64,000 bases of DNA. It comes from Caldifarciminota bacterium (GTDB taxonomy: Bacteria > Hydrothermota > UBA3073 > JACQXS01 > JAGMCI01). A program made the position numbers and the translations under genes. Below are positions 3,312 to 63,710 of this stretch, one piece after another (positions within the stretch are counted from its first letter, which is position 1; each line of letters starts with the position of its first letter). The stretch covers positions 77,252-141,251 of the forward strand of contig JAGMCI010000017.1 of NCBI GenBank assembly GCA_023129325.1, given 5' to 3'. Below the pieces are notes generated by a model. That model was not told the DNA's origin and did no database searches. It saw only the letters and a program-made list of their open reading frames with translations.

Positions 3312-3359
3312 AGGCACAAATTCAATTTGTGCCAAGCACGATTTGAAATCGTGCCTACA
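3312..3359. repeat. Double-hairpin GGCACAAATT / GCACGATTTG element, copy 1
   Basis: Two adjacent palindromes, GGCACAAATT-c-AATTTGTGCC and GCACGATTT-g-AAATCGTGC, form one unit. A nearly identical unit lies in the opposite orientation at 40219-40267, so this is a defined element rather than chance. Here it occupies the spacer after the barrel gene. Confidence 0.85.
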
Positions 3360-3440: not shown

Positions 3441-4655
3441 ATGGAAGAGATTGATATTACCATTATTGGCGCAGGAGTTATTGGTCTTGCAATAGCTTCC
3501 GAGTTAGCAAAGGAGAGTAGGGCAGTTTATGTTCTTGAACGTTATAATACATTTGGGCAGGAAACTTCAAGCCGAAACAGTGAGGTTATCCATGCAGGCA
3601 TATACTATACACACAATACTTTGAAGGCAAAAACTTGTGTGGAGGGAAACAATTTGCTTTACGAACTTTGTGAAAAGAATAAAATTCCATATAAGAAGAC
3701 AGGAAAGCTTATTGTGGCAACAAATGGGAATGAAGTTATAAAGTTAGAAGAATTAAAGAAAAGAGGAGATGAAAATGGAGCGCGTGACCTTAAGCTCCTT
3801 TCTCAATCTGAGGTGATGAAACTTGAGCCAAATATACAGGCAAAAGGAGCTTTGTTTTCGCCCACAACGGGTGTGCTTGACTCTCATAGCTTAATGAAAT
3901 ATTGTATATCAAAAACAAAAGAAAATGGTGGAGAAGTCGTGTATAATTCAAATGTTGTTGGATTGGATAAGAAAGTAAACGGTTATAAAGTTACAATATC
4001 TGAAGGTAATGGGGATTATTTTTCCTTTATGAGCAAAATAGTGATTAATAGTGCTGGCCTTGGTTCTGATAAGATAGCAGAAATGGTGGGCATTGACATT
4101 AAAAAACAAGATTATGAATTAAAATTTTGTAAAGGTGATTATTTTAGCGTTGGACATGGTAAATCCCATCTTTTAGAACATTTAATCTATCCTGTCCCAA
4201 ATGGGGATACCTGTCCGCCATCCGTCAGGCCCGCCTTGACTCGTAGGCGAGGCAGGCAGGTTGGACTGGGTATTCATGTAACCCTTGATATTGGAGGAAG
4301 ATTGAAGTTAGGCCCAGATGATTATTATATTTCCCGAATGTCGGAATGTGCCTCTGGCACAGATAAAGGTAATTTAGATTACTCTGTTGATGAATCAAAA
4401 AAGAAAGAATTTTATGAGTCAGTAAAAGATTTTTTGCCTTTTATAGAGAAGGATGACTTAAGTCCCGATATGTCTGGAATAAGACCAAAGCTTCAAGGTC
4501 AGCATGAAGACTTTAAAGATTTTGTGATAAAAGATGAAGAAGACATAGGGTTTCCTGGATTTATAAATTTAATTGGAATAGAATCACCTGGACTTACAAG
4601 CTCTATCTCAATAGCAAAGCTTGTAAAAAATCTTGCAGAAAAATATATAAATTAA
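3441..4655 (+). CDS. FAD-dependent oxidoreductase, L-2-hydroxyglutarate dehydrogenase-like
   Basis: The N-terminus carries the dinucleotide-binding motif IIGAGVIGLAIASEL. The signatures SSRNSEVIHAGIYY and LKAKTCVEGN are typical of the LhgO/L2HGDH branch of the DAO family, which oxidises L-2-hydroxyglutarate (or a related 2-hydroxyacid) using FAD and passes electrons to the membrane pool. At about residues 257-273 an arginine- and proline-rich peptide (CPPSVRPALTRRRGRQ) interrupts the conserved YPVPN...GLGIH segment. It is encoded by a GC-rich palindrome and looks like an in-frame insertion. Apart from that the length is normal for the family. Confidence 0.8.
   Translation: MEEIDITIIGAGVIGLAIASELAKESRAVYVLERYNTFGQETSSRNSEVIHAGIYYTHNTLKAKTCVEGNNLLYELCEKNKIPYKKTGKLIVATNGNEVIKLEELKKRGDENGARDLKLLSQSEVMKLEPNIQAKGALFSPTTGVLDSHSLMKYCISKTKENGGEVVYNSNVVGLDKKVNGYKVTISEGNGDYFSFMSKIVINSAGLGSDKIAEMVGIDIKKQDYELKFCKGDYFSVGHGKSHLLEHLIYPVPNGDTCPPSVRPALTRRRGRQVGLGIHVTLDIGGRLKLGPDDYYISRMSECASGTDKGNLDYSVDESKKKEFYESVKDFLPFIEKDDLSPDMSGIRPKLQGQHEDFKDFVIKDEEDIGFPGFINLIGIESPGLTSSISIAKLVKNLAEKYIN
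4210..4260. repeat. GC-rich palindromic element inside LhgO-like gene
   Basis: CCTGTCCGCC...GGCAGGCAGG, with the inner motif CCCGCCTTGACTCGTAGGCG, stands out in a low-GC gene. It is in frame. The motif CCTTGACTCGTAGGCGAGGCAGG recurs in reverse orientation at 31848 and in part at 39548. Confidence 0.8.
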
Positions 4656-31048: not shown

Positions 31049-32484
31049 TTTTTGGATTGTTAATATTAATTTTGTGCGTTACTTTTTTAATCAGAATAGC
31101 ACCATGGTATCATGAACCTGTTTTTGAAGTAGATACCTGGGAACACCTTTTAGCAATAAAAACTATCCGTGAAAGAAAAAAAATACCAAATACAATCCCA
31201 TATTATTTGACAGGAAACACATTTTATTACCCTCCGCTTCTATATATCTTACTATCAGTATTCTCTCAGCAATTTATAGAAAAATATAGATATTATTTTT
31301 CACCCCTCACGGATGCAGTAATCTCTGCCATAAGCGCAGGGTTAATGTATTGCTTTACAAATTCTATATCGCTGTCTCTTTTTACAGCACTTATATATAC
31401 AACATCACCAATCCTCTTGCCTACAACTTCTTCCTTGACACCTCGTCCTTTAGGAGCACTTTTTGTTCAGCTCTTTTTCGTTAGTACCCTGCTTTTCCTT
31501 AAAACTAATTGCCCTGTATTCTTCTTTATAATGCTCTTGCTTGCCTGCCTCACCGCTCTCTCACATAGAATGGCTTCACAAATTATCTTCTTAATTGCTA
31601 TTTCCCTGTCAATATTTTATAAAAATATTACTCCGTTGTTGACAGTCTCAATTAGTGAATTGCTCTTCTTTATATTCTTGCCTTCTCTTTATCTGAGAGT
31701 CAGAATAGGTCACTTGCAAAATTTGTTGGTCTGGCATAGATATTTCAAGAAAAATTATAACCTCACGGGAAAAGTAAAGGGAATTATTGAAGCCGGAATA
31801 TTTTATCCCTTCGTATTAGTAACAACATTCTTAATCACGAAAATGCCTCCTGCCTCGCCTACGAGTCAAGGCGGGTTTGAATTTGCCTTCTTTGAAAACA
31901 TTAGTTTAAGTCTCATTGTAATTATATTTATAGTCCTATTCATTACACCATCTCTCGGAGAGCCAGAAAGATACTTCTCTTATGGAGCACTCCCAATTTC
32001 TCTATTAGGTGCCTATTGTCTCACAACTGATTTTAAATGGATTATAGCTATTGGTCTTCTCTTTCAAGTCTGTTTTTATATTCATAAACATATAATTATA
32101 TCGCACTCAAAGAAAAAACCTTATTGGTGGACCCCTTCATTTGTAAAACTTATAGAAAAACTTAAGCAATATCCAAGAGAGTCTCGGTTTTTATGTTTGC
32201 CTTACCCTATGAATCGTCCAATAGCCTATATGGGCGAAGTAAAAACTTTACATTTTACTCCAGAAGCTTTTCTTTTGCTCACAAAGATGTTCTTGAAAGG
32301 CGAGGGACTCATAACTGATGATGATTTTACCTCAGGTAAAATTCCATTACAAGAGATATTTATTCGTTTAAAAATAGAATATTTATTGGTAAAAAAAGGA
32401 TATATAGATATTAATCCTTCTTATTGGAAAATTATTGATACAATTGGAGATTATGAAATCTATCGTTTTTATATCAGCACTTGA
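31045..32484 (+). CDS. GT-C-like polytopic membrane protein
   Basis: A 479-aa protein with about ten hydrophobic segments, overlapping the flippase gene by four bases. An acidic motif in the first external loop (FEVDTWEHL) followed by NTIPYYLTGNTFYYPP resembles GT-C enzymes such as STT3/PMT relatives, which use lipid-linked sugars. A soluble tail of about 100 residues follows the membrane part. Residues 268-277 (PPASPTSQGG) are coded by a CCTGCCTCGCCTACGAGTC repeat between two helices. The exact reaction is not clear. Confidence 0.55.
   Translation: MIFGLLILILCVTFLIRIAPWYHEPVFEVDTWEHLLAIKTIRERKKIPNTIPYYLTGNTFYYPPLLYILLSVFSQQFIEKYRYYFSPLTDAVISAISAGLMYCFTNSISLSLFTALIYTTSPILLPTTSSLTPRPLGALFVQLFFVSTLLFLKTNCPVFFFIMLLLACLTALSHRMASQIIFLIAISLSIFYKNITPLLTVSISELLFFIFLPSLYLRVRIGHLQNLLVWHRYFKKNYNLTGKVKGIIEAGIFYPFVLVTTFLITKMPPASPTSQGGFEFAFFENISLSLIVIIFIVLFITPSLGEPERYFSYGALPISLLGAYCLTTDFKWIIAIGLLFQVCFYIHKHIIISHSKKKPYWWTPSFVKLIEKLKQYPRESRFLCLPYPMNRPIAYMGEVKTLHFTPEAFLLLTKMFLKGEGLITDDDFTSGKIPLQEIFIRLKIEYLLVKKGYIDINPSYWKIIDTIGDYEIYRFYIST
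31848..31876. repeat. CCTGCCTCGCCTACGAGTCAAGGCGGG element in GT-C-like gene
   Basis: TCCTGCCTCGCCTACGAGTC then AAGGCGGGT. It is the reverse complement of the core of the 4210-4260 element. In frame. Confidence 0.8.
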
Positions 32485-38322: not shown

Positions 38323-39573
38323 ATGAGAAAAATTCCGTTTACCATTCCAGATATAGAAGAAGAAGAAATAAAAGAAGTTATTGATACTTTAAAGTCGGGC
38401 TGGATTACTACAGGTCCCAAGACTAAAAAGTTTGAAGAACAGTTTGCCAAATATATTGGCTGTAAGCATGCAATTGCAGTTAATTCTTGCACAGGAGCTA
38501 TGCATCTTGCATTACTTGCTTACGGAATTGGAAAAGGAGATGAAGTAATCACTACACCCTATACATTTATCTCAACGGCAGAGACAATAATTCATACTGG
38601 AGCAACTCCTGTCTTTGTGGATATAGACCCTAAAACTCTCAATATTAACCCTGAAAAAATAGAATTCAGAATTCGGAATTTCCCGAAGGGATCCCGACCC
38701 CATCGGGACGGGGCAGAATTAAGAATTAAGGCAATAATGCCTGTGCATATTGCCGGACAGCCTTGTGATATGGATGAGATACTTGATATAGCTAAAAGAT
38801 ATAATCTTATTGTAATTGAGGATGCTGCACATGCTTTATCTGCAGAATATAAAGGTAAAAAGATAGGCACTATTGGCGATGTCACTTGTTTCAGCTTTTA
38901 TGCCACTAAAAATTTAACAACAGGAGAAGGAGGAATGATAACTACAGATGATACAGATTTAGCAGAAAAAATGAGGATATTGTCTTTACATGGAATGAGC
39001 AGAGATGCCTGGAAGAGATATACAAAAGAAGGCTCTTGGTATTATGAAATTTTAGATGAAGGGTATAAATATAATATGTCCGACATCCAGTCAGCAATTG
39101 GGATTACACAACTCCAAAAACTTGAAAAAATGCAAGAAAGGCGAAAAGAGATTGTAGAAGTTTATAATGAAGAATTAAAAGAAATTGATGAAATAATTAC
39201 TCCCCAACAAAAGGAAGGGACAAAACATGCCTGGCATCTTTATATCATCCAGATTAAACCAAAGCTCCTGAAAATCAATAGGAATGAGTTTATTAAAGAA
39301 CTTTCAAAAGAAGGGATTGGGACATCTGTTCATTTTATACCTCTTCATCTTATGCCTTATTACAAAAAGAAATATGGATTTAAACCTGGAGATTTTCTAA
39401 ATGCAGAGTATGTGTATGAAAGGGCAATTTCTCTTCCTCTTTATTCAAAACTTTCTAAAAGTGATGCTCAATATGTAGCAAAAATAATTAAAAAAATAAC
39501 CAAAAATAACCTGCCTCGCTCGCCTCGCTGGAGCTTCGGCGAAGCGGGCCCACGAGTCAAGGCGGGTGCGTGA
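38323..39573 (+). CDS. DegT/DnrJ/EryC1-family sugar aminotransferase
   Basis: A 416-aa PLP enzyme that probably aminates a keto-sugar nucleotide for the polysaccharide. GWITTGPKTKKFEEQF, NSCTGAMHLALLAYGIG, VIEDAAHALSAEYKGKKIG and SFYATKNLTTGEGGMI (PLP Lys) are all present. Two stretches are repeat-coded: residues 114-135 (around FPKGSRPHRDGAELRI), where relatives run directly from PEKIE to KAIMPVH, and the last 20 residues (LPRSPRWSFGEAGPRVKAGA). Both keep the frame. A TTGACA box lies upstream at 38267, but its -10 partner is unclear. Confidence 0.85.
   Translation: MRKIPFTIPDIEEEEIKEVIDTLKSGWITTGPKTKKFEEQFAKYIGCKHAIAVNSCTGAMHLALLAYGIGKGDEVITTPYTFISTAETIIHTGATPVFVDIDPKTLNINPEKIEFRIRNFPKGSRPHRDGAELRIKAIMPVHIAGQPCDMDEILDIAKRYNLIVIEDAAHALSAEYKGKKIGTIGDVTCFSFYATKNLTTGEGGMITTDDTDLAEKMRILSLHGMSRDAWKRYTKEGSWYYEILDEGYKYNMSDIQSAIGITQLQKLEKMQERRKEIVEVYNEELKEIDEIITPQQKEGTKHAWHLYIIQIKPKLLKINRNEFIKELSKEGIGTSVHFIPLHLMPYYKKKYGFKPGDFLNAEYVYERAISLPLYSKLSKSDAQYVAKIIKKITKNNLPRSPRWSFGEAGPRVKAGA
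38663..38728. repeat. Composite palindromic insertion in DegT gene
   Basis: A GC core, CCCGAAGGGATCCCGACCCC followed by ATCGGGACGGGG, is nested between AT-rich AGAATTCAGAATTCGG and CAGAATTAAGAATT arms. It adds about 20 codons to a conserved region and keeps the frame. Confidence 0.8.
39511..39567. repeat. GC-rich composite repeat forming the DegT C-terminus
   Basis: CTGCCTCGCTCGCCTCGCTG, GAGCTTCGGCGAAGCGGGCC and CACGAGTCAAGGCGGGT. Parts match elements at 31848, 58580 and 62935. It codes for the last residues of the aminotransferase. Confidence 0.85.
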
Positions 39574-39646: not shown

Positions 39647-40255
39647 ATGATTAAACGAATAATTGATTTTAAGGTCTCTGGAATATTAATATTAATTCTA
39701 TCTCCCCTTTTTTTGCTTATCTCTTTTCTTATAAAATTAGATTCAGAAGGTCCTGTTTTTTATAAATCTTCGAGAATAGGCAAAGATGGAAAGCCTTTTC
39801 AAATTCTTAAATTTCGGTCAATGATAAAAGATGCAGAACTAAAAGGTTCGAAAATAACTACAAAAAACGATTCCAGAATTACACATATAGGTAAAATATT
39901 ACGCAACACAAAACTTGATGAACTTCCGAACTTAGTTAATGTTCTAATAGGTGAATTAAGTCTTGTAGGTCCTCGTCCAGAGGTTCCGGAATATGTTGAA
40001 AAATATAGCCCCAGAGAACGAGAAGTTTTAAAACTCAAACCGGGCATAACAGGACCTTCACAACTAAAATATATAAATGAATCTTCACACCTCCATAATC
40101 TCAGCAAGGATTATCCTCAAATCCTATCTGATAAATTGACTCTTGACATTGAGTATTTAAAGAATGCATCTCTTATATTTGACATAAAAATCTTATTCTC
40201 TACTTTGAAAGCGCTATTTGTAGGCACGATTTCAAATCGTGCTTGCACAAATTAA
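39647..40255 (+). CDS. Initiating sugar-phosphate transferase (WcaJ/WbaP-like)
   Basis: A 202-aa monotopic phosphoglycosyl transferase that attaches the first sugar phosphate to undecaprenyl phosphate. One N-terminal membrane hairpin (ILILILSPLFLLISFLI), then GPVFYKSSRIGKDGKPFQILKFRSM, TKLDELPNLVNVLIGELSLVGPRPEVPEYV and LKPGITGPSQ, the core PF02397 motifs with the Asp-Glu pair. The last 11 residues (VGTISNRACTN) are encoded by the TGTAGGCACGATTTC repeat. It closes the polysaccharide locus. Confidence 0.88.
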   Translation: MIKRIIDFKVSGILILILSPLFLLISFLIKLDSEGPVFYKSSRIGKDGKPFQILKFRSMIKDAELKGSKITTKNDSRITHIGKILRNTKLDELPNLVNVLIGELSLVGPRPEVPEYVEKYSPREREVLKLKPGITGPSQLKYINESSHLHNLSKDYPQILSDKLTLDIEYLKNASLIFDIKILFSTLKALFVGTISNRACTN

Positions 40256-46690: not shown

Positions 46691-48577
46691 ATGATTGAAC
46701 TTCAAAACATAGGGATTGGGTTTGGTGGCAAGCCCCTGCTTAAGGATGTTTGCTGGCGTATTGGAGATAATGATAGGGTTGGATTAATTGGAGCCAATGG
46801 GAGCGGGAAAACTACCATTTTGCGTATCATTGCAGGACACATAAGGTCTGACCAGGGTGAAGTTATTAGGAGTAAAAGCTCTAAGATTGGCTATTTGCCC
46901 CAAGAAAGCGTGACATTTCGTGGTCGTTTGCTTTATAATGAGATGCTAAGTGTCTTTAAACCTATTCTTGCACTTTTTGAAACCAAGAAAGTAATAGAAG
47001 AAAAGTTAAGTAAATTAGGCTCTGGTTCTCAAAAATATCGTGAACTTCTTAAAGAATATGGTGAGCTTGAGGAAGAGATTGATAAAAAAGAGGGCTATAC
47101 TATAGAAAATAAAATTGAAAAAGTATTAAGTGGTTTAGGCTTTTCTGAAAAAGATTGGCACAAACCAACTGAAACTTTTAGTGGCGGATGGGAGATGAGA
47201 ATTGCTCTTGGAAAATTACTTTTACAAAATCCAGATGTCCTATTACTTGATGAACCAACTAATTTCCTTGACATTGAGTCAATTGCCTGGCTTGAGAATT
47301 ATTTAAAGAATTTCCGCGGTACAATAGTTTTGGTCTCTCATGACAGATACTTTATGGACAAAATAATCAAAAAGATTGTGGAGCTTGAGTTAGGCAAACT
47401 CACTCGTTATAATACCAATTATTCAGGCTACTTAAAAGAAAAAGAAAAACGCAGAGAGCTTCTTATAAGGGTTTACAAGAATCAACAGGAAGAAATAAAG
47501 AGAATAAGAGCATTTATTGATAAGTTTAGAGCCAATGCGAGCAAGGCAAGACTTGTAAAATCAAGGGAAAAGGTGCTTGAGCGAATGGAAATAGTAACTG
47601 TTCCTCCAGAGTTAAAGAAAGTCAAATTTAAGTTTCCTGAGCCACCAAGGTCGGGAGATAAGGTTTTGGAATTAAATAATGTAAGCCAATCGTATGGTGA
47701 AAAGAAAGTTTTTGAGGGAGTTGGCCTTTTTATAGAAAGAGGTGAAAGAATTGCAGTTGTTGGTGTTAATGGGGCAGGAAAATCTACATTACTTAAAATA
47801 CTTGCCGGTGTTCTTAAATCAAGTAGTGGGGAAAGGAAATTAGGAGCCAATATCAATATTGGTTATTTTGCTCAAAGGAGCCTTGAAATGTTAAATCCAG
47901 AAAATACAGTTTTGAAAGAGCTGGAGGAAATTGCCCCAATGGAAACAGAGACCAGGCTCAGGACTTTGGCAGGGGTGTTCCTGTTTTCTGGAGATGATGT
48001 ATTTAAACCTGTGAAAGTATTATCTGGAGGCGAAAAGACGAGGTTGGCGATAGCTAAAATATTAATTAACCCTGTCAATTTCCTTATTTTAGATGAACCA
48101 ACCAATCATCTTGATTTGGCAGGCAGAAAGGTATTGGAAAATGCATTAAAAGTATATCATGGAACACTTGTGCTTGTGACACATGATAGATGTATGATTG
48201 ATAATCTGGCTACAAAATTAATTGAAGTTGCTGATGGAACTATTAAAATTCATCTTGGCAATTATACAGATTATGTTACAAGGAAAACTGCAATCACAGA
48301 GGTCACAGAGAAGCAAAAGAAAGTTAAATTAAAGAAGCCACCTGTCCGTCGTCCGCCTCAGGCGGAGACGGACGGGAAGGAAAAAGAAATATCAAGAATA
48401 ACAAAATTGATAGCAAAGAAAGAAGCAAGGGTATATGAATTGGAGCAATTATTATTGGATTATGTTATATATTCTGACAAGCAAAAAATGAGATTATATA
48501 CTCTTGAATACAAAACTCTAAAACAAGAAATTGATGAATTATATGAAGAGTGGGATAAAATAAAAGATTTATCCTGA
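46691..48577 (+). CDS. ABC-F family ATPase
   Basis: A soluble protein with two ABC domains and no membrane part. Start at ATG 46691 (MIELQNIGIGFGGKPLL) is preferred to the GTG at 46670, whose first codons are repeat sequence. Domain 1: Walker A GANGSGKTT, signature FSGGWEMRIALGK, Walker B LLLDEPTNFLD. Domain 2: GVNGAGKSTLL, LSGGEKTRLAIAK, LILDEPTNHLD. The linker between them and a C-terminal coiled coil fit translation factors of the EttA/Uup group, which act on the ribosome. A GC palindrome adds RPPQAETDG before the coiled coil. Confidence 0.88.
   Translation: MIELQNIGIGFGGKPLLKDVCWRIGDNDRVGLIGANGSGKTTILRIIAGHIRSDQGEVIRSKSSKIGYLPQESVTFRGRLLYNEMLSVFKPILALFETKKVIEEKLSKLGSGSQKYRELLKEYGELEEEIDKKEGYTIENKIEKVLSGLGFSEKDWHKPTETFSGGWEMRIALGKLLLQNPDVLLLDEPTNFLDIESIAWLENYLKNFRGTIVLVSHDRYFMDKIIKKIVELELGKLTRYNTNYSGYLKEKEKRRELLIRVYKNQQEEIKRIRAFIDKFRANASKARLVKSREKVLERMEIVTVPPELKKVKFKFPEPPRSGDKVLELNNVSQSYGEKKVFEGVGLFIERGERIAVVGVNGAGKSTLLKILAGVLKSSSGERKLGANINIGYFAQRSLEMLNPENTVLKELEEIAPMETETRLRTLAGVFLFSGDDVFKPVKVLSGGEKTRLAIAKILINPVNFLILDEPTNHLDLAGRKVLENALKVYHGTLVLVTHDRCMIDNLATKLIEVADGTIKIHLGNYTDYVTRKTAITEVTEKQKKVKLKKPPVRRPPQAETDGKEKEISRITKLIAKKEARVYELEQLLLDYVIYSDKQKMRLYTLEYKTLKQEIDELYEEWDKIKDLS
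48341..48376. repeat. CCTGTCCGTCGTCCGCC palindrome in ABC-F gene
   Basis: CCTGTCCGTCGTCCGCCTCA and GGCGGAGACGGACGGG are complementary arms around the TCCGCCTCAGGCGGA core. In frame, in the flexible linker before the C-terminal coiled coil. Confidence 0.9.
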
Positions 48578-53417: not shown

Positions 53418-53852
53418 ATGTATAACGGTAAATACAAGTATTCTTTAGAGGAAAAAGGGCGTATATTCATTCCTGTCAAATTCAGGCGTGGTTTAATGCC
53501 AGATGATGAGGATACATTTGTAGTAACAAAGGGTTATGATGGTTGTTTGGCTTTATATCCATTAAACGAATGGCGAAAAGTGGGGGAGAAGTTAAAGAAA
53601 TATCCAACCAATGATTCTAAGTCCAGGAAGACAGCAAGATGGTTTTCTGCGAATGCAGAAGTTGTTAAGCTTGATTCTCAAGGACGAATTAAGGTTCCTC
53701 AGCATTTAGTAGATTTTGCTAAACTTGTTAAAGAGGTAGTAATTATAGGAGTTTTTAACAGAATAGAATTATGGGAGCCCAAAGCTTATGAAAAGGAGGA
53801 AAAGGAATCCGACCCTACGAAATTAGGGGGTATTGAAGGACTAAATCTATGA
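53418..53852 (+). CDS. mraZ: Transcriptional regulator of the dcw cluster
   Basis: A 144-aa protein with two AbrB-like MraZ half-domains: YKYSLEEKGRIFIPVKFRRGL at the N-terminus and KLDSQGRIKVPQHLVDFAKL at about 87-106, each with the DxKGR-type motif. MraZ binds direct repeats upstream of its own gene and controls the division and cell-wall genes. The Shine-Dalgarno AAGGAG is only two bases from the ATG, which is unusually close, but the N-terminus fits the family only with this start. Confidence 0.92.
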   Translation: MYNGKYKYSLEEKGRIFIPVKFRRGLMPDDEDTFVVTKGYDGCLALYPLNEWRKVGEKLKKYPTNDSKSRKTARWFSANAEVVKLDSQGRIKVPQHLVDFAKLVKEVVIIGVFNRIELWEPKAYEKEEKESDPTKLGGIEGLNL

Positions 53853-53891
53853 AGCAGGAAGTATGAAGTAAGAAGTGGGGAGTGGAAAATT

Positions 53892-54810: not shown

Positions 54811-55065
54811 ATGTTGAATTACAATTTTAAAATAAAACAGGTTAGTTTATTTATTTTCTTAATTTTTTGTCTCGCTTTTCTTTATTTATTTGCATACTCA
54901 GAAGCCATAAAGTTTACCTTTCGGCTCCACAACGAAACTAAGAGGCTTAAGCAGCTTAGTAATAAAGTAGAGGAACTACGAATTAAAGAAGTTTCTTTAG
55001 CTTCAGCTACTCGTATTTACAAAATAATGGGAAGTAGGAAGTGGGAAGTGGGAAGTAAGAAGTAA
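54811..55065 (+). CDS. FtsL-like short membrane protein
   Basis: An 84-aa ORF at the usual ftsL position between rsmH and ftsI. One membrane helix (VSLFIFLIFCLAFLYLFAYSEAI, about 10-32) is followed by a short coiled coil (RLHNETKRLKQLSNKVEELRIKEVSLAS). FtsL has no conserved motifs, so identity rests on place and topology. The last dozen residues (MGSRKWEVGSKK) are encoded by a GGAAGT repeat, implying the natural C-terminus was replaced. It is short for FtsL. Confidence 0.6.
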   Translation: MLNYNFKIKQVSLFIFLIFCLAFLYLFAYSEAIKFTFRLHNETKRLKQLSNKVEELRIKEVSLASATRIYKIMGSRKWEVGSKK

Positions 55066-55094
55066 GAAGTGGGAAGTGAGAAGTAGGAAGTATA
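55024..55094. repeat. GGAAGTGGGAAGT array
   Basis: Irregular tandem copies of GGAAGTGGGAAGT/AGAAGTAAGAAGT. It codes for the end of the ftsL-like gene and fills the gap to ftsI. Related stretches occur at 53859-53889, 56775-56830 and 57233-57262. Confidence 0.85.
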
Positions 55095-55108
55095 AATTAT
55101 AGTAAGAA

Positions 55109-56740
55109 TTGATAATGAATAAACAAGTATCTTTAGGGAGAGTTGGATTGGTTCTTGCTTTATCTATAGGTTTTGAAATCTTTATTCTCACAAGGCTTGT
55201 TTCGCTTCAACTTTTTCAATATTCAAAGTTCCAGACAAGGGTTAGCCAACAATCCAAAACAAGAGTCAAAGTAACACCTGTCAGAGGAAGAATTTATGAC
55301 CGCTTTATGAGAATTTTAGCAACTTCCCTGCCCGACCCGTCATCCGCCTCAGGCGGAGACGGGCAGGCTGGAATTAAATCAAAGAGAGTATATCCACTTA
55401 ATGATTTAGCTGGTAATCTTCTTGGATTTGTTGGAAGAGATGGTTCAGGATTAGAAGGCATTGAGTATGAATTTGATTATCTTCTAAGTGGAAATTCTGG
55501 CTGGACAGATTTAGGCAAAACACCCAGTGGCAAACTTTATCCTTATCCTGGTTATTCCCGAGTTTCAGCTCAATCTGCTCAAGACATTGTTTTAACTATA
55601 GATGCTGATATTCAAGCGATAGCTGAGGAGTCTTTAAAGAAGAGGGTTAATTCAATGCGTGCCAGCTCCGGGAGCGTAGTTATCCTCAATCCTGGGACTG
55701 GTGAAATATTAGCTATGGTAACCATTCCTTGTATAAATCCCGGGAATTGGGCACAATCTAAACGAACCCTGAATGGTTTACCTACTATTCTATGTAAAAA
55801 CAGAGCTTTGCAAGTCCAATTTGAGCCTGGTTCCACATTTAAAATCATTCCTATATCTGCTATTGTGGAGAATGAGCTTGTTGTCTTTTCTGACACAGTT
55901 GAAGATGGGACAGGAGAAGTAACGATTGAAGGTAAAACTATTCATGACTTACATCCACATGGGCCACTCACATTTACCGAAGCTGTCTGGAAGTCAAGTA
56001 ATGTTGCTTTTGTTTATTTAGCAAATTTAATTGGCAGGAAAAGATTTTATGAAGCAGCAAGAGCATTTGGCTTTGGAGTATCAACTGGCATAACACTTCC
56101 TGGTGAGGCAAGGGGCTCTTTATCATCTCCGGACAATTGGTCAGACCTTGAATTTGCCAATCTTGCATTTGGACAAGGAATGAGTTGTAATTTACTTCAA
56201 CTTGCTCTTGCTTATAGTGTGATTGCAAATGGTGGAATTCTTTTAGAGCCTATAATAATTAAGGAAATACTTAGCAATAAAGGAAAAGTGATTTATACAG
56301 CAAAGCCTATAAAGGTGAGAAAAGTTTTAAGCGAGGACAAGGCAAAAAAGATAAAAGAACTTCTTTGTGGAGTGATTAATGAGGGGACTGGAATACTTGC
56401 CAAAATTCCAGGTCTTGACATAGCTGGCAAGACCGGAACCAGTCAGAAATATATACCTGCTCGCCGAACGAGTTCCCTGTCTGCCCCGCTCCGACAAGCG
56501 AAGCGGGACGGAGCCGACAAGGCAGGGGGGTATGGAGATATTTATACAGTGACTTTTGTAGGGTTTTTTTCTATTGGTCCATCAACCAATGAACAGATTT
56601 TGATTGCATGCCTTATTGATGAGCCTAAAGTTTTACATCTTGGGGGACAGGTATGTGGCCCAATGTTTAAGGAAATTGCTCAAAAGACCATTCGTTTAAA
56701 TCCCTATAGGACACAGATGGACACAGAAATTAAGGGATGA
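55109..56740 (+). CDS. ftsI: Septal peptidoglycan transpeptidase (PBP3/FtsI type)
   Basis: A 543-aa class B penicillin-binding protein with one N-terminal membrane helix (about 10-32). The pedestal begins VRGRIYDRFMRILATS. Transpeptidase motifs: STFK in FEPGSTFKII, SSN in WKSSNVAFV, and KTG in IAGKTGTSQKY. The usual head segment between LATS and KRVYP (about 80-90 residues in typical FtsI) is missing; a palindromic repeat coding PSSASGGDGQAG sits there. A second GC repeat (residues 456-473, SSLSAPLRQAKRDGADK) follows the KTG motif. It overlaps murE by four bases. Confidence 0.9.
   Translation: MIMNKQVSLGRVGLVLALSIGFEIFILTRLVSLQLFQYSKFQTRVSQQSKTRVKVTPVRGRIYDRFMRILATSLPDPSSASGGDGQAGIKSKRVYPLNDLAGNLLGFVGRDGSGLEGIEYEFDYLLSGNSGWTDLGKTPSGKLYPYPGYSRVSAQSAQDIVLTIDADIQAIAEESLKKRVNSMRASSGSVVILNPGTGEILAMVTIPCINPGNWAQSKRTLNGLPTILCKNRALQVQFEPGSTFKIIPISAIVENELVVFSDTVEDGTGEVTIEGKTIHDLHPHGPLTFTEAVWKSSNVAFVYLANLIGRKRFYEAARAFGFGVSTGITLPGEARGSLSSPDNWSDLEFANLAFGQGMSCNLLQLALAYSVIANGGILLEPIIIKEILSNKGKVIYTAKPIKVRKVLSEDKAKKIKELLCGVINEGTGILAKIPGLDIAGKTGTSQKYIPARRTSSLSAPLRQAKRDGADKAGGYGDIYTVTFVGFFSIGPSTNEQILIACLIDEPKVLHLGGQVCGPMFKEIAQKTIRLNPYRTQMDTEIKG
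55328..55367. repeat. CCCGTCATCCGCC...GGCGGAGACGGG palindrome in ftsI
   Basis: CTGCCCGACCCGTCATCCGC, then CTCAGGCGGAGACGGGCAGG. It is in frame, at the point where the pedestal head domain would normally be. Confidence 0.9.
56474..56527. repeat. Nested GC palindrome in ftsI near the KTG motif
   Basis: CCCTGTCTGCCCCGCTCCGA, CAAGCGAAGCGGGACGGAGC, CGACAAGGCAGGG: outer arms CCTGTCTGCC/CGACAAGGCAGG and inner arms CCCGCT/AGCGGG. In frame. Confidence 0.88.
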
Positions 56741-58299
56741 GACTTAAGAAACTTATAAAAGGGATAGAGAAGTTAGAAGTAGGAAGTGGTTCACCACGAC
56801 CTTCACCACGGAGTGGGAAGTGGGAAGTGAGATATGGGGACTCAGAGATAGAGGGCATTGCTTACGATTCAAGGGCTGTGAAACCCAATTATATCTTTGT
56901 TGCCAGGTGTCCCGATTCTCCCTGTCTGCCGACAAGGCAGGTCGGAATTGAAGATTCTCACAAATATATTAACGATGCTATAAAAAGAGGAGCAAAGTTT
57001 TTTATCCTTGAGCATAGTGTTGGCAAGCTACCGTGCCCCAGTATAATAGTGAAAGACAGCAGAAAAGTCTTGGCTACTTTAGCCTCAAATTTCTATGGCA
57101 ATCCTTCCAAGAAACTAAAATTAATAGGAGTAACAGGAACTTATGGTAAGACTACTTCTACCTATCTTTTAAAATCAATATATGAAGCTTCTGGCTCTTT
57201 GACAGGTCTTTTAGGGACAATTAAGTATGAAGTAGAAAGTGAGAAGTGGGAAGTGGGAAGTGCACATCACACGACACCAGAGTCTCTTGAGCTCGAGCAG
57301 TTATTTTCTGAAATGTTAAAGAAAGGAGTAAAAGTAGTTATTCTTGAGGTTTCATCGCATTCTTTAGTTCTTTCACGGGTTTATGGGGTAGATTTTAATA
57401 TTGCTTGCTTTACAAGACTTGGAAGGGACCACCTTGACTTTCATCATACTCTCAAGGAATATGAGAAAGCAAAGCTTAAACTTTTCTTAGACTTAAAAAA
57501 AGACAGAACTGCAATTTTGAATAAAGACGATGTTACTTTCAAACACTTTAAAGAACACACAAAAGCAAACATTATAACTTATGGAACAACTCCCAGTTGT
57601 GATGTACAAGGAGAACTTTATTCTTCAAGTTTAAAAGGGCTTGAGATTATTATAAGAGTGAAGCAAAAGACAAAGAGTAAGAAGCAAATGGTGGGGAAAA
57701 TTTATTCTCCTCTTATTGGCTCACACAATTTTTACAACATTTTACTTGCAGCGACTTGTGCATTGAATGATAGGATTGATTTTGAGACTGTTTGTGAAGG
57801 AATAGAAGAACTGAAACAAGTTCCAGGGAGATTTGAGATTATAGAGCGTGCCCGCATGCCAAGGCAAAGCGTCGGGCAGGTAATAATAGACTATGCTCAT
57901 ACGCCTGACAGTTTAAAATCGGCTCTTCTTTCAGTCAGAAAACTTACACATGGAAGACTCATATGCATATTTGGTTGTGGTGGGGACAGAGATTCTGGCA
58001 AGAGACCCTTAATGGGGAAAGTTGCTTCTGAGTTATCAGATTATGTCATTCTGACTTCAGACAATCCAAGAAGTGAAGACCCTTTAAAAATAATTCATGA
58101 TATAGAGCAAGGAGCCGCAGGTGGCAATTACTCTATTGTTCCTGACCGTCGTGAGGCGATAAAGAAAGGCATTGAGAGGTCATCTTCTGAGGATACAATT
58201 TTATTAGCTGGCAAAGGGCATGAAAAATATCAAATTTATGGAGAATTAAAAATTCCTTGGGATGAGAGGAAAATAGTAAAGGAGATATTGGAAGTGTAA
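56737..58299 (+). CDS. murE: UDP-N-acetylmuramyl-tripeptide synthetase
   Basis: A 520-aa Mur ligase adding the third stem residue. ATP site GVTGTYGKTTSTYLL; EVSSHSL, GRFEIIERA, VIIDYAHTPDSLKSAL and the DNPR motif in TSDNPRSEDP, which in the family marks meso-diaminopimelate as substrate. Four regions are repeat-coded: residues 11-30 (LEVGSGSPRPSPRSGKWEV), 58-71 (PDSPCLPTRQVGIE), 165-176 (EVESEKWEVGS) and 371-381 (ARMPRQSVGQ). All remain in frame and lie between conserved motifs. Confidence 0.93.
   Translation: MRLKKLIKGIEKLEVGSGSPRPSPRSGKWEVRYGDSEIEGIAYDSRAVKPNYIFVARCPDSPCLPTRQVGIEDSHKYINDAIKRGAKFFILEHSVGKLPCPSIIVKDSRKVLATLASNFYGNPSKKLKLIGVTGTYGKTTSTYLLKSIYEASGSLTGLLGTIKYEVESEKWEVGSAHHTTPESLELEQLFSEMLKKGVKVVILEVSSHSLVLSRVYGVDFNIACFTRLGRDHLDFHHTLKEYEKAKLKLFLDLKKDRTAILNKDDVTFKHFKEHTKANIITYGTTPSCDVQGELYSSSLKGLEIIIRVKQKTKSKKQMVGKIYSPLIGSHNFYNILLAATCALNDRIDFETVCEGIEELKQVPGRFEIIERARMPRQSVGQVIIDYAHTPDSLKSALLSVRKLTHGRLICIFGCGGDRDSGKRPLMGKVASELSDYVILTSDNPRSEDPLKIIHDIEQGAAGGNYSIVPDRREAIKKGIERSSSEDTILLAGKGHEKYQIYGELKIPWDERKIVKEILEV
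56775..56830. repeat. GGAAGTGG array interrupted by the 31-bp element, copy 3
   Basis: The identical 31-bp unit (56786-56816) is nested in a GGAAGTGGGAAGTG stretch at the start of murE and is translated as part of GSGSPRPSPRSGKWE. Confidence 0.9.
56921..56941. repeat. CCTGTCTGCCGACAAGGCAGG palindrome in murE
   Basis: Outer arms of the 56474 element without its inner part. In frame, in the N-terminal domain after IFVARC. Confidence 0.85.
57233..57262. repeat. GAAGTGGGAAGTGG stretch inside murE
   Basis: GTAGAAAGTGAGAAGTGGGA followed by AGTGGGAAGTG. It encodes EVESEKWEVGS between LGTIKYE and HHTTPES, both conserved. Confidence 0.75.
57850..57880. repeat. GCCCGCATGCC...GTCGGGCAGG element in murE
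   Basis: GCCCGCATGCCAAGGCAAAG and CGTCGGGCAGG. Inserted between the conserved GRFEII and VIIDYAHTP motifs, in frame. Related to the 58561 and 62917 elements (GCCAAAGCAAAGC, CCGCCAAACAGAC). Confidence 0.8.
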
Positions 58300-58300
58300 A

Positions 58301-59866
58301 GTGAAAAGCGTAAAGTTAAAAAATCCGATAAAAGTCACTGAAATAATAAGAGCCACTCATGGAACTCACAGGGGCGTATTGCAATACGTCCCTACTGATA
58401 TAAAAATAACGGGCATATCTATAGACTCACGTACTACTGAGCAAGGTGATATATTCATAGCTCTCAAAGGTGAGAGATTTGATGGACATCTTTTTGTTAA
58501 GGAAGCTTTACAAAAGGGAGCAGTGGGAGCGATAGTAAATGCAAATTGTAAATTGCAAAATGCCCGTCTGCCAAAGCAAAGCGGCCCGCTTCGCCGGAGC
58601 GAGAGCGAGGCGAGCGGGCAGGCAAATTGTAAATTAATAATGGTAAAAGATACTTTACGAGCTCTTGGCGATTTAGCAAGTGACTACAGAAAACGCTTTT
58701 CCCCATCAATTGTTAGTATTACAGGCTCTAATGGTAAAACAACCACTAAAGAACTGGCGGCACTTTGTCTTTCTGGGTCTTATCGTGTATTAAAAAACGA
58801 GAGAAGCCTCAATAGTCTTGTAGGGCTTCCACTCACTCTATTTAGTCTTTCAAAAGATATTGAAATTTGTATTCTTGAGCTTGGGACAAATCAGCCTGGT
58901 GAAATAGCAAGGCTTTCAGAGATTGCCTGCCCGACGTCCCGATTATATCGGGACAGGGACGGCAGGCGGGCAAAGCCCAAAGTTGGTGTTATTACTAATA
59001 TAGCCTTGACTCATCTTGAAGGTTTTAAAACATTAAGAGGTGTTTTTCAAGAAAAGTTGAAGCTGATTAATTTTGTGGACTTTTTAATTTTAAATGCTGA
59101 TGACGATTTACTTTGGCAAAGGCTAAAGCCTTTGGCTACAAAGCGGGGGATAAACCCCTGCGCTACAGGAATGGATATTTTCTGGTTTGGGATAAAGAGA
59201 GGGGACTTGAGAGCTCAAGTTATTGGGTCTGGGAACAGAATAAAATTCAGAGTGAGGGATGTTGATTTTGAACTACCTTTATTTGGGATATGGAATATAT
59301 ATAATGCCCTTGCTGCTTTAAGCATTGGAATTTACTTTGATTTAAGTCTAAAAGTAATGAGTCAAGCAATAAGAAATTTTAAGTCTTTATCCCATCGCGG
59401 AAAGATAATAAATTGCGATAGCATTAGTGTCATAGATAGCACCTATAATGCCAATCCTGTTTCAGTCAAACTTTCTCTTCAGGGATTAGGAACACGGATA
59501 GACACAGATAGGAACACGGATAGACACAGACGGCGGGTTGCAATTTTAGGAGATATGTTAGAGCTTGGTGAGGAGTCTCAGAAACTTCATAGTGTAATTG
59601 GAAAATCTCTCAAGGAATTTGGAATTGATGTTCTCATTGGAGTTGGAAAGTTCGCACGGTATTATGTAGAGGCAAGTAATGTAAGGGATAAATTTTATTT
59701 CTCAAGTAAAACTTGCTCCTACAAACCTGTAATAGATTTTCTCAAAGATTTTATAAAACCTGGAGATGTTATTCTTGTTAAAGGCTCGCGAGCTATGCAA
59801 ATGGAAAAGATAGTGAACGCACTGCGTGCTCAATGCAAAATTAAAAATGAAAATTGTAAACTGTAA
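58301..59866 (+). CDS. murF: UDP-N-acetylmuramoyl-tripeptide--D-Ala-D-Ala ligase
   Basis: A 521-aa Mur ligase adding D-Ala-D-Ala. GITGSNGKTTTKELA-type ATP site (ITGSNGKTTTKELAAL), ELGTNQPGEIARLSEIA, HRGKIINCDSISVIDSTYNANPVSVK and VLVKGSRAMQME are diagnostic. The family is usually about 450 residues. The excess is repeat-coded: residues 23-31 (GVLQYVPT), 80-112 (NCKLQNARLPKQSG...QANCKL), 208-224 (PTSRLYRDRDGRRAK), 273-289, 396-412 (RIDTDRNTDRHRRR) and the C-terminal CKIKNENCKL. It is the most heavily interrupted gene in the window. Confidence 0.92.
   Translation: MKSVKLKNPIKVTEIIRATHGTHRGVLQYVPTDIKITGISIDSRTTEQGDIFIALKGERFDGHLFVKEALQKGAVGAIVNANCKLQNARLPKQSGPLRRSESEASGQANCKLIMVKDTLRALGDLASDYRKRFSPSIVSITGSNGKTTTKELAALCLSGSYRVLKNERSLNSLVGLPLTLFSLSKDIEICILELGTNQPGEIARLSEIACPTSRLYRDRDGRRAKPKVGVITNIALTHLEGFKTLRGVFQEKLKLINFVDFLILNADDDLLWQRLKPLATKRGINPCATGMDIFWFGIKRGDLRAQVIGSGNRIKFRVRDVDFELPLFGIWNIYNALAALSIGIYFDLSLKVMSQAIRNFKSLSHRGKIINCDSISVIDSTYNANPVSVKLSLQGLGTRIDTDRNTDRHRRRVAILGDMLELGEESQKLHSVIGKSLKEFGIDVLIGVGKFARYYVEASNVRDKFYFSSKTCSYKPVIDFLKDFIKPGDVILVKGSRAMQMEKIVNALRAQCKIKNENCKL
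58370..58394. repeat. GGGCGTATTGCAATACGTCCC palindrome in murF
   Basis: Second copy of the palindrome in the epimerase gene at 27245. In frame. Confidence 0.85.
58541..58636. repeat. Composite nested element in murF
   Basis: A GC part (GCCCGTCTGCCAAAGCAAAG, CGGCCCGCTTCGCCGGAGCG, GAGGCGAGCGGGCAGGC) lies between two copies of CAAATTGTAAATT. The structure suggests one element inserted into another. The GC core is nearly identical to 62929-62973 in ftsW and is read in the same frame (GPLRRS.SEASGQAN). Confidence 0.92.
58925..58971. repeat. GCCTGCCCGACGTCCCGA palindrome in murF
   Basis: Outer arms GCCTGCCCG / CGGCAGGCGGGC and inner arms GTCCCGAT / ATCGGGAC. In frame, codes PTSRLYRDRDGRRA. Confidence 0.9.
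59121..59167. repeat. AGCGGGGGATAAACCCCTGCGCT element in murF
   Basis: GGCTAAAGCC plus GGCTACAAAGCGGGGGATAA and ACCCCTGCGCTACA, a pair of small palindromes in frame in the central domain. Confidence 0.7.
59489..59535. repeat. GAACACGGATAGACACAGATA tandem in murF
   Basis: AGGAACACGGATAGACACAG occurs twice in tandem (24-base period) and encodes RIDTDRNTDRHRRR. It belongs to the ACGGATACACAGAT-type family. Confidence 0.8.
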
Positions 59867-61043: not shown

Positions 61044-62462
61044 ATGACAAATTACAAAGGCAAGAGGGTTTCAGTAATTGGTTTTGGGAGAAGTGGAAAG
61101 GCTTGTGTAAAGTTATTGCTTGACAGAGGAGCTAAAGTCTTTGTCAGTGAGATAAAAGAAAGGAATCAAGGAATCGAGGGTTCAAGGGTTCAAGAGGTTG
61201 TTAGATTTGAGGAACTGGGGGTTGAATTTGAGTTTGGGAAGCACAGTTCTAAGATACTTAATTCAGGTTTAATAATAGTATCACCTGGGGTGTCACTTGA
61301 TTTACCTATTATTAAAGAGGCGAGACGCAGGGGCATTCCTGTGCTCAGCGAGCTTGAGTTTGCGACACAATTTATTCCCGCACTTATGCATAAGTGCGGG
61401 GTTGGGATAACAGGGACTAATGGGAAAACCACTACCGCCTTTCTTATCCAGGAAGTGTTAAAATCTGCTAATAAAGAGTGTATCGTGTGTGGCAATATGG
61501 GGGTTCCTGTATCTTCAATAGTTAATTTGTTAGTTGATAAATCAGGAAACTCAACAATACCTATAATTGAGGTTAGTACATTTCAACTTGAGGCTATAGA
61601 TTCTTTTTGTCCTCATATAGGTATACTCTTAAATATCACTCCAGACCATCTTGACAGACATAAAAACTTTAAAGAATACAGAGATTTAAAATTCAAACTT
61701 TTTTCAAATCAAAGAGCTAATGATTTCGCTATCCTCAATTTCGATGATATAGAGATAAGGAAGTATCTATTTCATGAGGAACAAGATAAGTTAAAAGCGC
61801 AAAAGATTTTCTTTTCCACGCAGGCTGGAAGCCTATGCCACCAGAATGTATATATAAAGGATAAAGACATCTTCTGGGAGGGAGAGAAATTATTTAGCTT
61901 AAATAATTTAAATCTAAAATGGGAATGTTGGCTTGAGGATGGGCTTGCAGCTATTGCAGTAGCAAAGATATTGGGCATACCGAATGAGACTATTCTGAAG
62001 GGGTTTCGCAATTTCAAAGGAGTACCGCATCGACTTGAAGACATTGGTGTAATAAATGGAGTTAGATTTATAAATAATTCTATGTGCACGAATCCTGATT
62101 CATTTAAAAGGACACTATTAAGTTTCAAAAGGCGTGTAATACTTATAACAGGTGGCAAAGAGAAAGGAGTAGAGATAACTTCAATTGTCAATACTATAAA
62201 AAGGAAAGCAAAGCATACAATACTAATCGGCGAAACAAGTGAAACATTAGCCAAAGCACTGAAAGAGAACTATACAAAAGCATTCCCGTCTGCCCGTCGG
62301 GCAGGGAGCATGGATGAGGCAGTAAAGATTGCGTTTAAGTATGCAACCAAAGGAGATACAATCCTTTTATCACCAGGATTTGCTTCATTTGATTGGTTTC
62401 AGGATTTCAAGGATAGAGGAGAAAAATTTAAAAAAGCGATTGAGAAACTAAAAAAGTATTAA
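61044..62462 (+). CDS. murD: UDP-N-acetylmuramoylalanine--D-glutamate ligase
   Basis: A 472-aa Mur ligase. VSVIGFGRSGKACVKLL binds UDP; GITGTNGKTTTAFLI is the ATP site; EVSTFQLEAIDSF, ILLNITPDHLDRH and GGKEKGVEI are diagnostic. Four repeat-coded stretches keep the frame: residues 39-52 (NQGIEGSRVQEVVR), 111-119 (PALMHKCGV), 259-266 (QAGSLCHQ) and 414-421 (PSARRAGS). It is slightly longer than usual as a result. Confidence 0.93.
   Translation: MTNYKGKRVSVIGFGRSGKACVKLLLDRGAKVFVSEIKERNQGIEGSRVQEVVRFEELGVEFEFGKHSSKILNSGLIIVSPGVSLDLPIIKEARRRGIPVLSELEFATQFIPALMHKCGVGITGTNGKTTTAFLIQEVLKSANKECIVCGNMGVPVSSIVNLLVDKSGNSTIPIIEVSTFQLEAIDSFCPHIGILLNITPDHLDRHKNFKEYRDLKFKLFSNQRANDFAILNFDDIEIRKYLFHEEQDKLKAQKIFFSTQAGSLCHQNVYIKDKDIFWEGEKLFSLNNLNLKWECWLEDGLAAIAVAKILGIPNETILKGFRNFKGVPHRLEDIGVINGVRFINNSMCTNPDSFKRTLLSFKRRVILITGGKEKGVEITSIVNTIKRKAKHTILIGETSETLAKALKENYTKAFPSARRAGSMDEAVKIAFKYATKGDTILLSPGFASFDWFQDFKDRGEKFKKAIEKLKKY
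61377..61400. repeat. Perfect 24-bp palindrome CCCGCACTTATG|CATAAGTGCGGG in murD
   Basis: Each half is the exact reverse complement of the other. It is translated as PALMHKCG just before the conserved ATP-binding GITGTNGKTT. Confidence 0.9.
61820..61842. repeat. GCAGGCTGGAAGCCTATGCC element in murD
   Basis: An imperfect palindrome (AGGCT-ggaa-AGCCT variant), in frame, coding QAGSLCH. Confidence 0.65.
62285..62306. repeat. CCCGTCTGCCCGTCGGGCAGGG palindrome in murD
   Basis: CTGCCCG / CGGGCAG arms; in frame near the C-terminus, coding PSARRAG. Confidence 0.8.
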
Positions 62463-62528: not shown

Positions 62529-63710
62529 ATGAAAAAAACAGATAAAGGCATACTTTTAATTACTCTTATTCTTGTAGGCATAGGACTTATAATGGTCTAT
62601 TCCTCTTCAGCCTTTTCATCCCTGAGAGTGATGAATACAAGCACCTTTTTCTTTAAGAAGCAACTTATTCCATTAGGAATTGGGGTTGTTCTGTGTTTTA
62701 CGGTATCGAAAATTGACTACAGAATATGGGGCAAGTATTCTTATCTCATTTTAGGAATTACTATTTTACTTCTTTTCTGGGTTCTCTTATTCAGTCAGTC
62801 AGTTCATGGGACAAAAAGATGGATAAGATTTAGCAACTCATCACTTAAGTGGATTTCGTTTCAACCAGCAGAATTTGCAAAGTTAGGAGTAATAATATTT
62901 ATAGCAAATTTCATTTCCCGCCAAACAGACGGCCCGCTTCGCCGGAGCTTCAGCGAGGCGAGCGGGCAGGCAAATCATTCCGCCTCAGGCGGATTATACA
63001 CCCAATACGTCAGCCGACGGATTAATTTTGTGAAATTTCGTGGTTTATATCTTTCAATCGCATTAGCGATTGTATTTCTGCTAATTGCTCTTGAACCATC
63101 ATTTGGAGTTTTATTTGCTATCTGCGTTACCTGTCTTATTATACTTTTTTTAGGAAACTTTAGAATAACCTGGCTCCTTTTGATTTTTGCGGGTGTATTT
63201 GGAGCAGGTTTTTTACTTATCAATCATTCTCCTTATGCAAAGTTAAGGATGGCAAATTTCTTTTCCCATGAAGGATATCAGTTAAGACAATCAATTTATG
63301 GCATAGGAGCAGGTGGATTATTTGGTGCGGGACTGGGTAATGGGAAAGCGAAGCTTTTCTTTCTTCCCGAACCACACACTGATTTTATATTTTCTATTAT
63401 TGGTGAAGAACTTGGGTTTATAGGATGTGCTATTGTTTCAGTTTTATTTTTAATTCTTTTAATACGAGGAATAAAGATAGGTATTCGTCAACAGGCGGAT
63501 AAATTTGGGTTTTTACTCGCAGTAGGAATAAGTTTCATAATATTTGTGTCAGCAGGGATTCATATTGGTGTGACATGTGGCATTTTACCGATTACAGGAA
63601 TTCCTTTGCCATTTATATCATTTGGAGGCTCAAATCTTTTGTCAAATCTTATTGGAATTGGGATATTATTAAATATAAGTCGGCAAAGACAGAGGACAGA
63701 AGACAGATAA
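62529..63710 (+). CDS. ftsW: Lipid II polymerase / cell-division protein
   Basis: A 393-aa SEDS-family glycosyltransferase that polymerises lipid II with FtsI. About ten membrane helices; LKWISFQPAEFAKLGVI, IYGIGAGGLFGAGLGNGKAKLFFLPEPHTDFIFSIIGEELG and GILPITGIPLPFISFGGSNLLSNLIGIGI are diagnostic. Residues 129-165 (RQTDGPLRRSFSEASGQANHSASGG...YVSRR) come from a composite GC element between two helices. The C-terminus (RQRQRTEDR) is encoded by a TCAGAAG-type repeat. Confidence 0.93.
   Translation: MKKTDKGILLITLILVGIGLIMVYSSSAFSSLRVMNTSTFFFKKQLIPLGIGVVLCFTVSKIDYRIWGKYSYLILGITILLLFWVLLFSQSVHGTKRWIRFSNSSLKWISFQPAEFAKLGVIIFIANFISRQTDGPLRRSFSEASGQANHSASGGLYTQYVSRRINFVKFRGLYLSIALAIVFLLIALEPSFGVLFAICVTCLIILFLGNFRITWLLLIFAGVFGAGFLLINHSPYAKLRMANFFSHEGYQLRQSIYGIGAGGLFGAGLGNGKAKLFFLPEPHTDFIFSIIGEELGFIGCAIVSVLFLILLIRGIKIGIRQQADKFGFLLAVGISFIIFVSAGIHIGVTCGILPITGIPLPFISFGGSNLLSNLIGIGILLNISRQRQRTEDR
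62917..63024. repeat. Composite GC-rich insertion in ftsW
   Basis: Contains GGCCCGCTTCGCCGGAGCTT with CGAGCGGGCAGGCAAAT (as in murF 58582-58627), then TCCGCCTCAGGCGGA, then TACGTCAGCCGACGG. At least three element types lie in tandem over about 108 bases, all in frame. Confidence 0.92.

Follow-up and report, generated by a model that had tools for sequence, protein, structure and literature searches.

Palindromic inserts in the genes of the window

The window, the whole stretch of 64,000 nucleotides that was analysed, contains murF, ftsW and a DegT-family aminotransferase gene, and Pfam agrees with all three identities. The first-pass annotation of this DNA had claimed that murF and ftsW share a near-identical GC-rich insert read in the same frame. 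We confirmed this claim: the near-copies at 58582-58627 in murF and 62930-62975 in ftsW are the same at 43 of 46 bases (93% identity), and the peptides quoted for them, GPLRRSESEASGQAN and GPLRRSFSEASGQAN, were reproduced in one common frame. The ftsW copy had been placed at 62929, one base off. Both contain a hairpin-forming, GC-rich palindromic unit of 30 bp, CCGCTTCGCCGGAGCTTCAGCGAGGCGAGC, here called element A, which adds ten codons per insertion. The partial copy reported for the C terminus of the DegT protein is also present (39517-39550); it is inverted and is read in a frame other than that of murF and ftsW, giving the peptide RSPRWSFGEAG. The use of the same frame in just two copies is weak evidence by itself, and the 67 genic copies described below were used for the test. 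The features of the window are listed in Table 1.

Table 1. Genes, element copies and palindromic inserts in the window
Feature	Position	Strand	Remarks
DAO-family oxidoreductase gene, GC-rich insert with element B	4203..4270		from sequence and Pfam
Element B copy in ORF 31045-32484	31849..31880		sequence match
Element B (CCTGCCTCGCCCACGAGTCAAGGCGGG, 27 bp) split by element A	39510..39566		based on empty B copies within the same genome
Inverted element A at the C-terminal end of the DegT-family aminotransferase gene	39518..39547	-	frame R2
ABC-F ATPase gene, palindromic GC-rich insert	48337..48376		TCCGCCTCAGGCGGA core; from GC-island scan and Pfam
PBP gene, palindromic insert	55326..55371		+15 aa (+9 vs one relative); inner unit 24 bp
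PBP gene, palindromic insert	56456..56530		+25/26 aa; inner unit 30 bp, GCCCCGCTCCGACAAGCGAAGCGGGACGGA
murE, palindromic insert	57846..57880		+10 aa vs five order-level relatives; the family-level relative instead has 4 aa more in this loop
murF	58301..59866	+	521 aa, Mur ligase domains
murF, entire nested GC-rich insert	58562..58623		host palindrome CCCGTCTGCCAAAGCAAAGCGGC^GGGCAGG with element A at ^; 18-22 aa absent from murF orthologues
Element A in murF	58586..58615	+	30 bp, frame F0, peptide PLRRSESEAS
murF, second palindromic insert	58925..58978		+15 aa; 21-bp palindrome within another palindrome
murD, palindromic insert	62285..62320		+7 aa
ftsW	62529..63710	+	393 aa
ftsW, entire GC-rich insert	62917..62992		host palindrome, element A and TCCGCCTCAGGCGGA palindrome; 26-31 aa extra between TM segments vs relatives and solved FtsW
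Element A in ftsW	62934..62963	+	30 bp, frame F0, peptide PLRRSFSEAS

The window has a GC content of 35%, and a scan for GC-rich islands found 12, of which 11 lie within ORFs; these ORFs include PBP (two islands), murE, murF (two), murD, ftsW, DegT (two), ABC-F and the oxidoreductase. The proteins were compared with orthologues from up to six relatives, ranging from the same family to the same order (41 to 62% identity). The inserts in PBP, murE, murF, murD and ftsW are additional residues relative to these orthologues. For the first murF insert, the gain is a net +7 aa against two order-level relatives, which have a loop of different sequence, and +16 aa against two others. In the solved homologue of E. 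coli (MurF, 1GG4), the site of this insert corresponds to a loop between two strands of the N-terminal domain. The ftsW insert corresponds, in a solved FtsW, to the loop between the segment ending at about residue 133 and the segment starting at about residue 184. GC-rich palindromic islands number 36 in 425 kb of the source genome and 1 in 120 kb of the family-level relative, a roughly 10-fold difference in density that suggests a recent invasion. An Rfam search of the window gave no match at the gathering threshold.

Outside the window, the genes of the source genome that host element A code for an alanine racemase, a complex I 49-kDa/hydrogenase-like subunit, a class I tRNA synthetase (in the anticodon-binding domain), a polysaccharide deacetylase, a UDP-GlcNAc 2-epimerase, a sugar transferase, a C25-family peptidase and an amino acid kinase-family protein, pyrH-like in appearance. 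Hosts in other genomes include TsaD, an S1 protein and a P-type ATPase, as well as Lon, where the insert lies between the AAA lid and the protease domain, and a class II tRNA synthetase, where it lies between the core and the anticodon domain. The P-type ATPases of two Patescibacteria (L067 944-3628 and L086 1278-4070), which are 72% identical, carry element A at the same site and in the same frame. An insertion can thus last long, if this one was inherited and not gained twice, and the site is possibly a dated insertion.

Target, nesting and distribution of element A

We aligned 108 matches from other genomes; their similarity was confined to a single short, sharply bounded block, C CCGCTTCGC nnnn GC nnn AGCGAGGCGAGC. 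The 5' context is conserved as RC^CCGC and the 3' end is GAGC; position -1 of the target is C in 98% of cases and position -2 a purine (R) in 96%. Comparison of filled and empty targets gave a net length of 30 bp in every pair, in about 24 distinct cases that represent seven target types: element B, element K, element C, TCATTCCCGC^GAAAGCGGGAATC, CTTCGAC^AAGCTCAGG, CCTGAGCTTG^CGAAGG and element A itself. No target duplication was visible beyond a shared C. As single-stranded DNA, element A folds into an 8-bp stem with a 10-nt loop and a 3-nt tail, with a stability (z of about -1) no better than that of many shuffles of such GC-rich sequence.

Element A often sits at the apex of other palindromes, and in 25% of copies the two flanks form a stem (score of at least 5), compared to 7% when the partners are shuffled. 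An unbiased search of the source genome for filled and empty sites returned other inner units of 21, 24, 27 and 30 bp. Some of its hits had a length not divisible by three, and most of these were tandem or AT-rich repeats. Contig C11 has a gene with a nest three deep, in which K (itself a 30-bp unit) holds A and A holds B (27 bp; 57 bp together). In several genomes (L042, L071, L083, L131 and others), element A is centred in a widespread repeat, GTCATTCCCGCGAAAGCGGGAATCC; among the loci read, 12 were filled and 3 empty. Other units are also found one inside another: in L155, one 24-bp unit interrupts another of 24 bp.

The source genome (2.0 Mb, 36% GC) has 19 copies, 12 forward and 7 reverse, by a search for the exact pattern, which diverged copies escape. 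Chance as the source of these copies is excluded, since the reversed-pattern control gave 0 matches in every genome searched. The pattern was found in none of 146 further genomes from its phylum. In a public genome collection at least 106 stretches carry element A; the matches listed are mostly from Patescibacteria, with a few from Elusimicrobia, Raymondbacteria and Ignavibacteriales and none from Rickettsiales. Within one class, 19 of 233 genomes are carriers, and the richest carrier genome, G043, has 34 copies. Two alphaproteobacterial matches may be due to chance in GC-rich DNA. Element A is patchy over distant bacterial groups, in carrier genomes that are nearly all draft metagenome assemblies. 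Carriage by phages was considered and rejected, as 2.9 million viral contigs contained 0 exact matches. A search of the open-access literature (subscription journals lie outside it) for the element sequence and its peptides returned a single match, which was unrelated.

The source genome, analysed here through individual stretches and hits, is itself a draft assembly in 57 contigs, and one could ask if repeats were stitched into genes by faulty assembly or binning. We regard this as extremely improbable, since the inserts neither close the ORFs nor shift their frame, dozens of independent assemblies show the same element with the same net length, and the difference between nested targets is exactly 30 bp.

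Reading frame and length of the copies

We tabulated 152 distinct copies. With gene calls made from ORFs, a copy was scored as genic if its ORF was 150 aa or longer and extended 60 nt or more beyond the copy on either side (n=67). The genic copies used F0, the frame of murF and ftsW, 26 times, followed by R0 (17), F2 (10), F1 (6), R1 (6) and R2 (2). The null model took the target preference from 58 intergenic copies and applied it to the same genes, with stop-free frames only. It predicted 12.5 copies in F0, 13.4 in F1, 4.3 in F2, 20.1 in R0, 11.2 in R1 and 5.4 in R2. The distribution observed differs from this expectation (overall P=2.5e-5), as does F0 alone (26 versus 12.5, P about 1e-4), and the ratios of observed to expected are 2.3 for F2, 2.1 for F0, 0.85 for R0, 0.54 for R1, 0.45 for F1 and 0.37 for R2. 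Removal of the alphaproteobacterial copy left F0 at 25 of 66 (P=2e-4). The F0 excess is larger in copies outside other palindromes (16 of 33), and the frame bias remains under stricter gene calls.

The enrichment of one frame that the first-pass annotation had anticipated was thus found, and an even spread over the open frames, which would have spoken against it, was not seen. Its suggestion that only one or two frames are tolerated went too far, as all six occur, five of them in the source genome. There the bias is weak (scored copies: F0 5, F1 4, R0 2, R1 1). It had also proposed that stops or bad peptides limit the frames. Stops do explain the rarity of R2 and partly that of F2: over the 152 copies, F0 is stop-free in 152, R0 in 149, R1 in 145, F1 in 144, F2 in 107 and R2 in 57. 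They do not explain the deficit of F1 and R1, which are open in 95% of copies and nevertheless depleted, and stops as the full cause of frame use were rejected on this ground. The remainder fits peptide properties. The favoured frames encode the most disorder-prone, near-neutral peptides, PASPELQRGE (F2) and PLRRSFSEAS (F0), and the depleted open frames encode a basic peptide, RFAGASARRA, and a leucine-rich one, LASLKLRRSG. Observed over expected use broadly tracks disorder propensity and low charge, in a post-hoc comparison of six frames in which R2 fits by stops alone.

Alternatively, there may be no frame selection at all, the agreement in frame between murF and ftsW being the outcome of the codon phase of the target site, stops and small numbers. 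Many R0 copies are expected from target preference alone and few R2 copies from stops alone, and the source genome uses four or five frames. Yet after both corrections F0 stands at twice and F1 at half its expectation, and the bias holds with stricter gene calls and in non-nested copies, so that we consider this explanation unlikely. Codon phase of the target site was accordingly rejected as the cause for F0; it accounts for R0. Skipping of the inserts in translation, also considered, is not needed, because the ORFs continue in frame through them.

We then examined length, leaving the loop free at 3 to 20 nt; about 150 matches were listed, from 38 carrier genomes, and were counted by hand. Among the matches listed, the core measured 29 nt in the large majority, 26 nt in 18, 23 nt in 3 and 28 nt in 6, with no other length. 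The corresponding net lengths are 30, 27 and 24, and rarely 29. Five of the six 29-mers lie outside long ORFs, and 10 of the 15 24- and 27-mers are genic. The length of the element shifts by codon steps, spacer copies included. These steps are the strongest sign for our inference that the element lineages were filtered on their way through genes.

Spread of element A and its relation to known palindromes

The explanation that we favour, with a probability of about three in four, is that the insert is a very short mobile palindrome which combines selfish spread with selection by the host protein on its frame. Bacterial genomes consist mostly of genes, so that lineages of the element with a length in multiples of three and few stops would be expected to survive best as it spreads selfishly. 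After insertion, selection on the host protein would retain mainly copies in loops and linkers. The frames kept would be those that give flexible, near-neutral peptides (F0, PLRRSFSEAS; F2, PASPELQRGE), and copies in basic or leucine-rich peptide frames (F1, R1) or in stop frames (R2) would be purged. The common frame of murF and ftsW would then reflect the most tolerated frame, not a common event. A more ambitious version describes a codon-shaped selfish hairpin across phyla, with a multiple-of-three length even in spacers, nests with codon-multiple palindromes, a filter for peptide flexibility and charge in essential genes, and hence a natural library of linkers; we propose it tentatively, as slightly less than an even chance.

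The mechanism of spread is a separate matter. Element A could be a REP-like hairpin moved as single-stranded DNA by a Y1/HUH transposase of the RAYT or IS200/IS605 type, a possibility that is compatible with the favoured explanation. The short 5' target RC, the lack of target duplication and the hairpin body resemble Y1 single-stranded DNA transposition in the pattern of IS200/IS605, the source genome encodes four Y1_Tnp proteins (122-199 aa), and REPs within palindromes are on record (PMC3733652). However, none of the four Y1_Tnp genes is flanked by element A, Y1 genes are about equally common in element-negative and element-positive genomes, the carrier with 34 copies has only a sub-threshold Y1 match, and element A is without a GTAG or CGTC tag. 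More generally, neither the surroundings of the Y1 genes nor presence across genomes revealed a mobilising gene linked to the element.

The other possible mechanism needs no dedicated enzyme: the elements would spread through recombination, template switching or the repair of breaks at hairpins, and would pass from species to species in DNA taken up from neighbours. It is in keeping with the palindromes within palindromes, up to three deep, with a nesting habit common to many unrelated inner units, and with the finding that no enzyme correlates with the presence of element A. In yeast GC clusters, the merging of palindromic clusters has been described and enzyme-free copying proposed (PMC4478555). 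Conversely, the base-exact boundaries and the nearly invariant RC target indicate specific cleavage. We consider Y1 transposition and enzyme-free copying at hairpins about evenly matched, each being conceivable but short of probable.

Among known kinds, the Rickettsia palindromic elements (RPE) and REP-like palindromes come closest, and none of the families compared fits fully. RPE and the protein-coding palindromes of Wolbachia occur in frame in conserved, apparently functional genes and in spacers, are tolerated in loops, and have no known mobilising enzyme (PMC2229807, PMC10969869). Like RPE, element A lies in frame within conserved protein genes (67 genic copies with an open frame; the window inserts are absent from relatives). 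Unlike RPE, which the reviews compared here describe as measuring about 105-150 bp (roughly 100-150 bp) and which are known from Rickettsiales, it is 30 bp long (with variants of 24/27/30) and occurs in several phyla. The nesting of 21-30 bp units and the three-base length steps are absent from the RPE reviews compared.

GTAG/CGTC REPs are stem-loops of 20-40 bp with a 3-bp tail, some in genes and some in larger palindromes; CGTC REPs have no dedicated transposase and include the intragenic RPE-4/RPE-6 of R. conorii (PMC3733652). Element A is similar in its 30 bp, 8-bp stem, 3-nt tail and many copies (19 and 34 per genome). It differs in having no GTAG/CGTC tetranucleotide, in its 10-nt loop, in being single or nested and not arranged in head-to-head dimers, and in that nearly half of its copies are genic. 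The RAYT gene of GTAG REPs is flanked by repeats, and no Y1_Tnp gene of the source genome is flanked by element A. The GC clusters of yeast mitochondria are short GC-rich palindromes that enter AT-rich DNA, merge, are patchy and are exchanged horizontally (PMC4478555). Element A shares the invasion of AT-rich DNA by short GC-rich palindromes, the merging and the patchiness; GC42, in contrast, is organellar, 42 nt long and has an AG target, whereas element A is codon-multiple and in frame in conserved bacterial genes. Finally, ERIC, NEMIS/Correia and YPAL are small non-autonomous repeats that form in-frame fusions with genes (PMC2229807). Element A resembles these MITEs with open frames in such fusion. 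MITEs measure 70-300 bp (ERIC/NEMIS/YPAL 100-200 bp) and mostly have terminal inverted repeats and TA duplications, whereas element A, at 30 bp, has neither.

Protein-coding palindromes have so far been presented as a peculiarity of Rickettsiales, and the present element is a 30-bp analogue in many uncultivated lineages. The core genes hit include murF, ftsW, alanine racemase, class I tRNA synthetase, an amino acid kinase-family gene and lon. The element has a codon-multiple length and a biased use of frames, which makes selection by host proteins on selfish DNA testable by counting, and it accounts for odd insertions in metagenome-derived genomes that would otherwise be taken as protein features or annotation errors.

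Several other repeats were observed. Heptad repeats (GAAGTGGGAAGT...) lie in or beside the PBP/murE region at 55025-55098, 53852-53890, 56811-56849 and 57209-57261, and order-level relatives have NSQL/NSQ-like repeat peptides in the N-terminal region of MurF; together these suggest another class of gene-entering repeat. A dispersed repeat, ATCTGTGTAATCTGTGGTT, occurs in both orientations and mostly in spacers (window positions 878, 8098, 15764, 19238, 45328 and 50385). AT-type palindromes of two types, GGCACGATTTCAAATCGTGCC and GGGGCGTATTGCAATACGCCCC, are found at 3333-3359 and 40219-40245 and at 27244-27280 and 58370-58406, respectively, and L148 has the second type interrupted by a 24-bp unit. 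In L148 15133-16150 (contig C37 of the source genome), 45-bp in-frame tandem repeats of GGG-NTASG-YATVGGG units resemble a trimeric autotransporter head. The window also encodes, at 48852-50231, a 459-aa protein with ten or eleven TPR repeats at a near-perfect spacing of 102 bp.
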